Positions 1-33,266 of a stretch of 46,439 bases of DNA are shown here, one piece after another. Under the pieces are notes generated by a model. It worked only from the letters and a program-made list of their open reading frames with translations, was not told the DNA's origin and did not search any database. The position numbers and the translations under genes are program-made. Position 1 is the stretch's first letter. Every line of letters begins with the position of its first letter. Source of the DNA: Acidobacteriota bacterium (lineage in GTDB: Bacteria > Acidobacteriota > Terriglobia > Bryobacterales > Bryobacteraceae); assembly GCA_016213725.1 (NCBI GenBank), contig JACQZS010000093.1, positions 1-46,439 on the forward strand. The letters are read 5' to 3'.

Positions 1-94
1 GGAGACTCTGGCTGACGAACACGACGCAGTAGCGCTGTCTGAAATCGCCATGTCGGACGCGGGCTCGACTGTTCAGGAGTCGCCTACGAAATGA
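1..94 (+). CDS. 3' end of an unidentified protein (partial)
   Basis: An open frame enters from the left edge and gives about 30 codons ending in ...GSTVQESPTK and a TGA stop. The stop overlaps the next start codon as ATGA, so the two genes are translationally coupled and in one operon. The visible tail is acidic and Ser/Thr-rich with no recognisable domain. In related genomes a CpxP/Spy-like gene often follows a sigma factor/anti-sigma pair, but nothing in this fragment proves that identity. Confidence 0.6.
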   Translation, partial: ETLADEHDAVALSEIAMSDAGSTVQESPTK

Positions 95-825: not shown

Positions 826-834
826 AGTATAGCA
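826..834 (-). promoter_or_regulatory. Extended -10 promoter of rpmE
   Basis: TGCTATACT reads on the minus strand and is a full extended -10 element (TGn plus TATACT). It places a start site about 20 bases before the L31 start codon. No good -35 is present, as expected for extended -10 promoters. It lies downstream of the terminator of the small minus-strand unit, so rpmE does not depend on that transcript. Confidence 0.5.
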
Positions 835-850
835 AACCAGGGGCCAACAT

Positions 851-889
851 AAAACAAACCCCGCAGCCGGACACCGGCGACGGGGTTTG
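851..889 (-). terminator. Intrinsic terminator of the small minus-strand transcript
   Basis: A 9-bp stem (855-863 with 881-889, CAAACCCCG/CGGGGTTTG) is topped by a 5-bp inner stem (866-870 with 874-878). On the minus strand it is followed by TTTTATG. It closes the small transcription unit that starts near 1070 and separates it from rpmE. Confidence 0.7.
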
Positions 890-994
890 CGGTAGCCTGG
901 TTTTCAGACCTGCGGCCTGAACAACGCGCTCAGTGATCGGTTTCCCACTTTGGCCCTGCACTGAAGATGGGCCAGAGTGTGACCAGAGTGAGCT

Positions 995-1039
995 TTAGCA
1001 GTCGACCACCTCACGCGGGCAATAACTACCAGATCTCAT
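995..1039 (-). CDS. 14-residue micro-ORF, MRSGSYCPREVVDC
   Basis: The ATG at 1039 opens 14 codons ending in TAA. The peptide has two Cys, one being the last residue. The upstream sequence on the same strand can pair with the 16S rRNA 3' tail over about 18 consecutive positions, far beyond a normal Shine-Dalgarno site. Codons 10-12 (GAG GTG GTC, 1012-1004) repeat part of that anti-16S sequence, so a ribosome terminating at the final Cys-stop would sit with an SD-like element about 8 bases behind its P-site codon, the best spacing for pairing. This suggests the RNA-rRNA contacts matter as much as the peptide. The promoter and terminator show that the unit is expressed on its own. No function is assigned; conservation in relatives would decide whether it is a real coding sequence. 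Confidence 0.5.
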   Translation of the reverse strand: MRSGSYCPREVVDC

Positions 1040-1044
1040 GTTTA

Positions 1045-1062
1045 CTGGACCACCTCCTTTCT
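1045..1062 (-). promoter_or_regulatory. Exceptionally long Shine-Dalgarno match
   Basis: On the minus strand this reads AGAAAGGAGGTGGTCCAG. Against the usual bacterial 16S 3' end (CUGGAUCACCUCCUUUCU) it gives 18 consecutive pairs with a single G-U wobble. The AGGAGG core lies 13 bases before the micro-ORF ATG, longer than the usual 5-9. Confidence 0.6.
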
Positions 1063-1076
1063 TCAGTGATGGCCCG

Positions 1077-1105
1077 ATAATAAGGGACAGATTGAGGATT
1101 GTCAA
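1077..1105 (-). promoter_or_regulatory. Near-consensus sigma-70 promoter of the small transcript
   Basis: On the minus strand TTGACA (1105-1100) and TATTAT (1082-1077) are separated by exactly 17 bases. This is the best promoter in the window and predicts a start near 1070, a few bases before the long Shine-Dalgarno match. Confidence 0.75.
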
Positions 1106-1597: not shown

Positions 1598-3331
1598 ATG
1601 TCGAACACGATGAATGGCGCACGCATCCTGTTGGAATGCCTGGTGCGGGAAGGCGTGGACGTGATCTTCGGATACCCCGGCGGCGTGACGCTGCCGCTGT
1701 ATGACGTGATTTACGACCACGAGATCCGGCACGTGCTGGTGCGGCACGAAGAGAACGCGTGTTTCGCGGCCTCCGGCTACGCCCGGGCAACGGGCAAAGT
1801 GGGCGTGGCCTGCGCCACGTCGGGACCTGGCGCGACGAACCTGGTCACCGGACTGGTGGACTGCATGATGGACTCGATTCCGGTGGTTGCGCTCACCGGC
1901 CAGGTCACCTCCAAACTCATCGGCAGCGACGCCTTCCAGGAAGCCGACACATTCGGCATCACGCGCTCCGCCACCAAGCACAATTACCTGGTCCGCGACA
2001 TCAAGGAACTGGCCGACACCGTCCATGAAGCGTTCCACATCGCCTCCACGGGCCGCCCCGGCCCGGTGCTGATCGACATCACCAAGGACGTTCTTCAGGG
2101 GCAGGCGCACTACACCCCGATCCACGAGATCCATCTGCCGGGCTACAAGGTGGTGACCGACGGCCACGCAGGACAGATCCGCCGCGCCGCGCAGATGATG
2201 TGGGAGGCGCAGCGGCCCTACATTTACGCCGGCGGCGGCATCATCGCGGCGGGCGCGCACAACGAACTGCGCGAGCTGACCGAAACGCTCGACGCTCCGG
2301 CCGTCTGCACCCTGATGGGCCTGGGCGCGCTGCCGGGCTCGCACCCGAACTTCATCTCCATGCCGGGCATGCACGGCTCCTACGCCTCCAACATGGGAAT
2401 GTACGAGTGCGATCTGCTCATCGCCCTCGGAGTTCGCTTCGACGACCGCGTCACGGGTCGGCTGGCCTCCTTCGCGCCCCATGCGAAAGTAATCCATGTC
2501 GACATCGACCCGGCCGAGATCGGCAAGAACCGCACGGCGGACCTGCCGATTGTCGGCGATGCGAAGAAGGTGCTCTCGAAGCTGGTTCGCGTGCTGAAGG
2601 AACTGGAGCCGGAGATGGCGCCCGCGCGCGCGCAGGACCGCCGGGAATGGTGGAAGCAGGTGCGGACCTGGATGGAAGAGCATCCGCTGGAACCGGTGTT
2701 CTCTCCCGACGAGATCAAACCGCAGCACCTGATGCACGAGATCAACCGCATCTCCGACGGCAAGGCGATTGTCTCCACCGACGTCGGCCAGCACCAGATG
2801 TGGGCCGCACAGCACATCCGGTTCGACGAGCCGCGGCACTGGCTCTCGTCGGGCGGGCTGGGCTCGATGGGCTTCGGCCTGCCGGCGGCCATCGGCGCCC
2901 AGATGGCGCACCCGGACAAGCTGGTGTTCTGCATCTGCGGTGACGGCGGCTTCCAGATGGCGCTGCCTGAGGTGGCCACGCTGGCCAACCAGGGGCTGCC
3001 GGTGAAGGTCGTCATTATGAACAACGGCTACCTGGGTATGGTGCGGCAGTGGCAGGATCTGTTCTACCAGAACCGCCTCTCTTCCGTGCAGATCGAGGCC
3101 TTCCCGAACATCGAGATGTTCGCGGCCGCTTACGGCCTCCGCGGCCGCATTGTGGAGAAGCCCTCGGAACTCGCCGGCGCGCTGAAGGAAGCCGTGGAGC
3201 ACCCCGGCCCGTTCCTGCTGGACGTGCGCGTGTCGAACTTTGAAAACGTCTACCCGATGGTGCCGGCCGGCGCGGCCATCAATGAGATGGTTCTGGCTCC
3301 TCCCCAGCCGGTTCCGGTGCCCGCGCAGTAA
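1598..3331 (+). CDS. ilvB: Acetolactate synthase, large catalytic subunit
   Basis: A 577-residue thiamine-diphosphate enzyme. It joins two pyruvates to acetolactate (valine/leucine branch) or pyruvate with 2-oxobutyrate to acetohydroxybutyrate (isoleucine branch). The N-terminal domain has FGYPGG near residue 24 and the catalytic Glu in RHEENA (E51). The central FAD/transhydrogenase-like domain includes the RFDDRVTGR motif. The C-terminal domain carries the ThDP/Mg motif GDGGFQMA...NN near residues 447-475, followed by GYLGMVRQWQ. Length and the FDDRVTG motif mark the biosynthetic, FAD-containing type. The ATG is preceded by an AGGCAAGAG stretch. It is first in ilvB-ilvN-ilvC-cimA and lies behind the attenuator. 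Confidence 0.97.
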   Translation: MSNTMNGARILLECLVREGVDVIFGYPGGVTLPLYDVIYDHEIRHVLVRHEENACFAASGYARATGKVGVACATSGPGATNLVTGLVDCMMDSIPVVALTGQVTSKLIGSDAFQEADTFGITRSATKHNYLVRDIKELADTVHEAFHIASTGRPGPVLIDITKDVLQGQAHYTPIHEIHLPGYKVVTDGHAGQIRRAAQMMWEAQRPYIYAGGGIIAAGAHNELRELTETLDAPAVCTLMGLGALPGSHPNFISMPGMHGSYASNMGMYECDLLIALGVRFDDRVTGRLASFAPHAKVIHVDIDPAEIGKNRTADLPIVGDAKKVLSKLVRVLKELEPEMAPARAQDRREWWKQVRTWMEEHPLEPVFSPDEIKPQHLMHEINRISDGKAIVSTDVGQHQMWAAQHIRFDEPRHWLSSGGLGSMGFGLPAAIGAQMAHPDKLVFCICGDGGFQMALPEVATLANQGLPVKVVIMNNGYLGMVRQWQDLFYQNRLSSVQIEAFPNIEMFAAAYGLRGRIVEKPSELAGALKEAVEHPGPFLLDVRVSNFENVYPMVPAGAAINEMVLAPPQPVPVPAQ

Positions 3332-32549: not shown

Positions 32550-33266
32550 TCACTTGCCACCACCACCGGACCCGCCCGCCCCCAACATCTGCTCCATCAG
32601 CCACAAATAGAAGTTCAACACCGGCCCCTCAATCCCCGTCTTGGCCCCTAACCCGAAGTCCGTCAACATCATCCGTATCTCGTCGGACTCCGCCGACACC
32701 ACCCCGATCGGCGCGCACTCCTCGCTCACCACCGCCCGAATCACCTTCCCCTTCCGGTCCTCGGCCTCCACCAGAATCGCCGCCAGTTGCCGCCCCGCCA
32801 CCTGCAGCGTACGCCTCTCCACCTCTTTCCTGACAAAGGCCTCCGCCGCCGGCGCCACCGCCGCATCCTTCTGATTCTGATAGAACTTCTTCGGCACCCG
32901 GAAGGCCGTCATGCCATGCACCTGCACAATCACATCGGCCATTTCGCCGGGCCCATCCGGCGTCTCCTGCACCAGCAGCCGCGTCACTACGCGCGGCTGT
33001 TTCTCCAGCCGCGCATCGATTTCCATCCAGCGGTATGGCTTGCCCTTCTGCTTCTTCGTGTCCAGGATCGCGAACGTCAACTCATAGCGCTCCTGCTTCA
33101 CATTGTCCAGCACGTCGTAGCGGGCCCATGCTCCGGGGACGAAGCGGAACTTGCCATCGATGAGAATGGCCGTCCGCTGGCCGGGCACGGTCTCCTTCTT
33201 GGCGTCCGCCGCCACGGCGGCGCTCACCGCGCCCGCTACCAGCAAAATGGCAAATCTATGGCACAT
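32550..33266 (-). CDS. Secreted protein of unknown function
   Basis: A 238-residue protein beginning MCHRFAILLVAGAVSAAVA, a Sec signal peptide with cleavage near AADA. The mature part is beta-rich with many charged residues (ERYELTFAILDTKKQKGKPY, RWMEIDARLEKQPRVVTRLL) and ends in a glycine-rich tail (LGAGGSGGGGK). I recognise no family. GGAAGG 4 bases before the ATG at 33266 supports this start; an alternative Met is four codons upstream. Its promoter overlaps that of the divergent DUF3592 gene. The clpB promoter follows about 70 bases after its stop. Confidence 0.7.
   Translation of the reverse strand: MCHRFAILLVAGAVSAAVAADAKKETVPGQRTAILIDGKFRFVPGAWARYDVLDNVKQERYELTFAILDTKKQKGKPYRWMEIDARLEKQPRVVTRLLVQETPDGPGEMADVIVQVHGMTAFRVPKKFYQNQKDAAVAPAAEAFVRKEVERRTLQVAGRQLAAILVEAEDRKGKVIRAVVSEECAPIGVVSAESDEIRMMLTDFGLGAKTGIEGPVLNFYLWLMEQMLGAGGSGGGGK

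Follow-up and report, generated by a model that had tools for sequence, protein, structure and literature searches.

In the window, the whole 46,439-nt stretch of DNA analysed, the minus strand encodes a predicted small structured RNA in which an extended Shine–Dalgarno (SD) sequence ahead of the start codon and an internal SD-like site at a fixed distance from the stop codon bracket a mini-ORF of largely free sequence. Of 150 genomes sampled from the order, 143 have the RNA; its members extend over at least 23 numbered families of a major soil phylum, and it appears to be undescribed. Sequence comparisons make it very likely, close to certain, that this RNA family exists and that its reading frame is under selection. 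There is the possibility, with chances that we judge evenly balanced, that the RNA captures a ribosome at the extended SD and keeps it in place once it reaches the stop codon; we infer the holding and the output. An earlier note on this DNA had proposed that the RNA may titrate or hold 30S subunits or serve as a translation sensor, which is plausible; the second SD-like site, the pseudoknot and the spread across many families of the phylum were absent from that note.

Organization of the locus

The earlier note had described a TTGACA-17-TATTAT promoter and an intrinsic terminator framing about 220 nt, and a 14-codon ORF between them; all of these are present on the minus strand (Table 1), and about 220 nt separate the T-run from the predicted start. 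The promoter carries 11 of the 12 consensus letters, and two promoter-like sites were found in the 6 kb scanned, where 0.7 are expected. TTGACN-15..19-TANNNT precedes 91 of the 111 R1-type members with enough upstream sequence, nearly all of them from the source's own order, and the spacer is 17 nt long in 65 of these 91. The terminator was missed by a simple terminator scan and was found by folding. The GGCTACC sequence has TTCACCG or CTTACCG as its counterpart ahead of the terminator in other families, as judged by eye. CTACCG of the order could pair with GGTAG of the early ORF codons.

Table 1. Features of the small RNA locus in the window
Feature	Position	Strand	Remarks
Promoter	1077..1105	-	TTGACA 1105-1100, 17-nt spacer, TATTAT 1082-1077; predicted start near 1070
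Pseudoknot 5′ strand CACTGA	1063..1068	-	Directly 5′ of the SD; pairs with the P2 loop
Extended SD AGAAAGGAGGTGGTCCAG	1045..1062	-	18 positions complementary to the 16S 3′ end
Mini-ORF MRSGSYCPREVVDC, stop TAA	995..1039	-	Frame conserved; stop three codons past GAG-GT(G)
P1 helix, 5′ strand (ORF end)	1003..1016	-	Covariation, distant group included
Internal SD-like site GAGGTG	1007..1012	-	9 nt before the stop codon; overlaps the P1 5′ strand
P2 hairpin TGGCCC/GGGCCA	951..974	-	Loop TTCAGTG (965-959) supplies the 3′ strand of the pseudoknot
P1 helix, 3′ strand CGATCACTGAGCGC	926..939	-	Covariation count
Conserved GGCTACC	891..897	-	Directly 5′ of the terminator; by eye
Intrinsic terminator	851..890	-	Stem -29.3 kcal/mol, then T-run

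Extended Shine–Dalgarno sequence

AGAAAGGAGGTGGTCCAG (1062-1045) is the sole match to AGAAAGGAGGTGRTCCAG in the window when up to three mismatches are allowed, with 0.02 expected, and AAAGGAGGTGRTCCAG occurs a single time in the 6.05-Mb assembly. Because the 16S 3′ end was looked for in the source assembly and was not found there, the tail was taken from relatives, in which it reads GGCTGGATCACCTCCTTTCT. Against this tail the pairing claimed earlier is borne out, with 18 consecutive positions that include one G-U. The pairing energy is -32.9 kcal/mol, compared with -4.7 to -17.8 kcal/mol for the best candidate starts of the 29 predicted genes of the window. The median across members is -32.4 kcal/mol, and when G-U is counted as a pair, the ungapped run that pairs with the tail is 18 positions long in the median and 21 at most, twelve members being at 10 (n = 164). 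In one lineage an extra base splits the SD, and the outer 16S complement, TGATCCAGCC or TGGTCCAGCC, is kept in 11 of its 12 members. An extra GC-rich hairpin is seen by eye just 5′ of the SD in the distant members L034-L037, L042-L046, L048 and L055.

Internal Shine–Dalgarno-like site

In 160 of 164 distinct members, exactly three sense codons separate an in-frame GAG-GT(G) from the stop; since the script favoured ORFs with an in-frame GAGGT and most of the 164 came from a pattern or models containing GAGGTG, it is the three-codon distance and the stop that are free of this choice. The first codon of the site is GAG in 160/160 and the second is GTG in 153/160, and the neighbouring codons vary. 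The spacing is also present in 21 of the 23 loci found by an SD 15-mer alone, a query that does not include GAGGTG, and in 28 of 29 matches of covariance model R2 that were not used to build it (24 by script and four, L231, L242, L245 and L253, by eye; a single genus contributes 11 of the 29), L258 being the one without it. The four exceptions among the 164 are L009, L010, L096 and L207. L010, L096, L207 and L258 deviate from GAGGTG, and inspection by eye places the site of L010 one base away; L009 has lost the amino acids EV and retains GAGG-N8-codon-stop, again by eye.

The internal site pairs with the 16S tail at a median of -12.6 kcal/mol. The usual SD spacing is eight nt, which is also the distance between GAGG and the last sense codon, and therefore a ribosome with the stop codon in its A site would meet GAGGTG with its anti-SD. 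The 160 of 164 members thus have the arrangement of a minigene-like ribosome trap, with an SD-like sequence as far from the P site at termination as an SD usually is. The constancy of GAGGTG may be due to P1 pairing or to something else, although its partner strand mostly varies between G-C and G-U, on one side.

Reading frame and peptide

The script collected 166 distinct elements, and removal of L125 and L219, for which it had picked the wrong site, left the 164 members; L186 and L220 have no SD core for the script. In a count made without any choice of frame, the first ATG located 4-20 nt past GGAGG shares the frame of GAG in 147 of 148 members, and the remaining 12 of the 160 have no ATG in that range. 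The ORF is 11-22 aa long. Start codons interchange (ATG 147, GTG 10, TTG 3; n = 160), and so do stop codons (TGA 63, TAA 49, TAG 48; n = 160).

Synonymous fractions were compared in 148 close pairs, which are not mutually independent and in which RNA structure also constrains the codons near the stop. The fraction is 0.21 in the N-terminal part, where 0.18 is expected if the amino acids are irrelevant, 0.47 against 0.31 expected for codons 6-8 ahead of the stop, and 0.54 against 0.22 expected for the last five codons. The view of the earlier note that the RNA does not only make a peptide agrees with N-terminal amino acids that look unconstrained. Since changes in this part are near the amino-acid-neutral level, the frame and its end are kept and, as far as is visible, the N-terminal peptide is not. 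The ORF thus seems to be preserved because it is translated and not for the sake of the peptide made.

RNA structure

The structure was drawn by hand from the same 21 sequences that were used for the pair counts, and in these aligned sequences 83.3% of the cells of pseudoknot, P1 and P2 are paired, compared with 78.4 ± 0.6 when shuffled and 32-46% when slid. Twelve pairs are changed on both sides, a count that 1/500 shuffles equals, and the covariation score is reached by 0/500; of five pairing measures, four are reached by none of the 500 shuffles and one by a single shuffle. Five of the seven P2 pairs are changed on both sides. The pseudoknot, which in the order links CACTGA near the 5′ end to the P2 loop, is paired in 96% of cells, with compensatory changes in 4 cells. 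Alignments A3 and A4 exclude the diverged L002, L009, L010, L025 and L062 and the near duplicates L003 and L020, and alignment A5 excludes L033 and L028-L032. Column-wise covariation in A5 is weak, its double-change measures being reached by 165 and 317 of 500 shuffles and its covariation score by 22, probably because of register shifts.

In the distant group (n = 12), the lower part of P1 pairs with its own partner at -8.23 kcal/mol and with swapped partners at -6.16 ± 0.50 kcal/mol, and 0/2000 permutations reach the group mean. In a whole-region swap, which is a cruder test than the lower-P1 swap, own partners are favoured in the R1-type set (-30.06 vs -26.83) and are not favoured in family f8 (-17.34 vs -18.72) or in the distant group (-26.05 vs -26.04).

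An alternative pairing of the start SD with the 3′ part reaches -17.3 compared with -15.4 when shuffled and is better in 76% of members, which supports a universal switch of this kind only weakly. In L062, L119 and L122 the 3′ part holds a clear mimic of the 16S tail that is able to pair with the member's own start SD. As a trait of the whole family, such mimicry is no more than suggested.

Distribution across Acidobacteriota

The exact SD 15-mer AAAGGAGGTGGTCCA occurs in 23 of 61 genomes, the source genome included, with one copy each, and the reversed 15-mer used as a control gives four sporadic matches; most of the 23 loci share promoter, SD, ORF, hairpins and terminator, as judged by eye. 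The covariance model R1, built from 21 sequences, matches 143/150 genomes and 59/60 genera of the source's order, so that the conservation of promoter, SD and ORF in relatives, which the earlier note had proposed to examine by covariance search, is strong. Each genome has a single match except G500 and G509, which have two each; both of those in G509 are at contig ends (G509:C37 ends at 33097 and C178 starts at 1).

In the phylum sample R1 matches 42/392 genomes, two of the matches being false on reading (L268, a coding ORF, and L271, the antisense of 16S itself), and model R2, built from 12 distant sequences, matches 40/392; two genomes are true for both models, and G280 and G450 hold further members found by pattern alone. 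Most of the 392 genomes have no match with either model. R1, R2 and the pattern together place members in at least 80 of about 392-396 sampled genomes, a lower bound because both models are lineage-biased. Members were read in 23 of the 92 numbered families of the phylum (f1-f4, f8, f9, f15, f24, f26, f27, f32, f34, f36, f45, f47, f53, f62, f71, f76, f79, f85, f88 and f92), of which we infer f8 to be Acidobacteriaceae. An over-specific pattern run on genome contigs gave two matches, the named loci in Paludibaculum and Candidatus Korobacter versatilis. Pattern-search loci judged on reading to be chance were dropped (L026, L027, L040, L041, L047 and L050-L054), as were five rows without a locus (the second places of G236 and G084, and G145, G182 and G240). 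A phage origin was rejected, all 10 viral matches to the exact pattern being chance matches in coding sequence by eye, and plasmid and E. coli collections gave no blastn match.

Genomic context

L31 is encoded within 700 nt downstream in 28 of the 44 order-level members with enough sequence and is not found there in the other 16. Elsewhere the next gene encodes L13, TsaD, ThiG, an aminotransferase, CarB, MFS or an integrase, and at two loci the gene that follows, identified by Pfam as glycosyltransferase or OPT, is on the opposite strand. Since the downstream genes differ in this way, a leader of L31 (rpmE) was rejected on synteny. The independent transcript proposed in the earlier note is supported at the sequence level by the RNA's own promoter and terminator and by neighbours that vary among lineages, and by sequence the small RNA is a separate transcription unit.

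Between the terminator and rpmE, TGCTATACT at 826-834 (minus strand) resembles an extended -10 site, and similar sites are seen by eye in other members of the order; it is probably the own promoter of rpmE (L31), past the terminator. A strong hairpin at 474-505, listed as a terminator, lies between rpmE on the minus strand and the convergent ORF 91-492 on the plus strand. On the plus strand, positions 1320-1500 hold a leader peptide, MALDTSVCYQQLLKRSSVSNIVIVGIIRIGVAVPASA, with an Ile/Val run, followed, as seen by eye, by a GC-rich hairpin and a T-rich tail, upstream of the acetolactate synthase-like ORF 1598-3331, and this region is a probable ilv attenuator.

Proposed mechanism and alternatives

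Capture of a ribosome followed by its holding at the stop codon is the explanation that accounts most simply for two anti-SD sites around a largely sequence-free ORF, and we give it middling confidence. The 30S subunit would bind the start SD almost irreversibly, and the bound ribosome would translate the mini-ORF into a throw-away peptide. At the stop codon it would be gripped again by GAGGTG, because its anti-SD would be at the usual SD distance from this site with the last sense codon in the P site, and termination or recycling would therefore be delayed. The parked ribosome would keep P1 open, leaving the P1 3′ strand free to pair elsewhere, and in some families this strand would pair with the start SD to admit one ribosome at a time. 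The RNA would then report or buffer free ribosomes through ribosome-dependent folding or stability.

Ribosome binding can stabilise an RNA, as in STAB-SD, and the RNA may instead be a trans-acting dual-function small RNA whose structured 3′ part with CUACCG/UUCACCG pairs with mRNAs, translation just stabilising the RNA or regulating its folding. The stand-alone unit, the conserved promoter, a C-rich stretch ahead of the terminator conserved by eye in several families and a frame conserved as expected of a translated ORF are consistent with this alternative, which we regard as rather unlikely; it leaves the fixed GAGGTG-to-stop spacing and the kept frame unexplained. An ordinary highly expressed gene with a strong SD and a functional micropeptide would account for the conserved frame, the EVA-like C-terminus and the synonymous excess in the last five codons. 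However, the variable length, the unconstrained N-terminal part, a Glu that is always GAG and a Val that is nearly always GTG, the nucleotide spacing kept in L009 while its amino acids changed, and a covarying RNA structure within the same codons all argue against it, and we consider a micropeptide gene improbable.

The layout resembles that of a leader peptide, and with L31 so often downstream a cis leader (attenuator) can be envisaged for the downstream gene, here rpmE, with ribosome occupancy of the ORF selecting either P1 or terminator readthrough. But the 16 members without L31, the varied next genes elsewhere, two of them on the opposite strand, and the TGCTATACT promoter that L31 seems by eye to have past the terminator make this very improbable. 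The lowest probability is given to a guide or check for maturation of the 16S rRNA 3′ end, in which the long complement would bind immature or bS21-free 30S tails. It would agree with a complement that spans the whole tail and is retained in the lineage with a bulged SD, and with the link reported in S. aureus between extended SD pairing and missing bS21 (PMC13009471), but it requires neither a translated ORF nor an internal SD.

Capture and stop-codon holding can be extended to a more tentative proposal, which we consider possible with the balance somewhat against it: a new class of ribosome-parking RNA, old in Acidobacteriota, in which two anti-SD docks bracket an ORF translated only as a ferry, the parked ribosome refolds the pseudoknotted 3′ domain, exposing a 16S-tail mimic in several members, and the free-ribosome pool is measured and buffered. 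The RNA itself would be a natural case in which conservation falls on translating an ORF and not on what is produced, and in which SD pairing seems to serve at termination. The family makes testable the sensing of free ribosomes by bacteria and the holding of a terminating ribosome by an internal SD.

Comparison with known systems

We know of no described RNA with such an arrangement. The window has no Rfam 15 match at the gathering score; in a relaxed search the lowest E-value at the region is 0.68 (CC2171, 14.5 bits against a cut-off of 75), and the covariance models of Acido-1 (RF01686) and Acido-Lenti-1 (RF01687) give no match. The literature searched held nothing resembling the RNA. In agreement with the earlier note, the family thus appears to be undescribed; the Solibacter-1 motif (Weinberg 2010) is given for Solibacter usitatus with no Rfam accession (PMC2864571).

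A substitute for tmRNA was rejected, because the locus has no RF00023 match and a canonical tmRNA is found elsewhere in the genome at 170 bits. tmRNA is a structured RNA with a pseudoknot and a mini-ORF, and the small RNA shares this anatomy but differs in having its own SD and start codon. Leader-peptide attenuators of the trp/ilv type combine a short ORF, alternative pairing and a terminator, as does the small RNA, whereas the latter lacks a regulatory codon run and a fixed downstream gene, and its ORF is of largely free sequence. Inhibitory minigenes such as phage lambda bar have a tiny ORF with an SD near the stop codon, which would stall the terminating ribosome. The likeness lies in this close SD, but here an additional, internal SD takes that place, and the gene is chromosomal, structured and present in many families.

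The Downstream-peptide and yfr6 RNAs are likewise small structured RNAs with a short ORF maintained by in-frame indels; their conserved structure is the 5′ UTR and their ORFs are typically 17-100 aa, whereas here most of the structure is downstream of or within the ORF, the SD has the length of the 16S tail complement and a second SD precedes the stop (PMC2864571). In Staphylococcus aureus, SD pairing on native mRNA extends two base pairs past the canonical helix and is linked to missing bS21; the small RNA also pairs beyond the canonical helix, but over about 18 positions in one dedicated RNA rather than two base pairs (PMC13009471).
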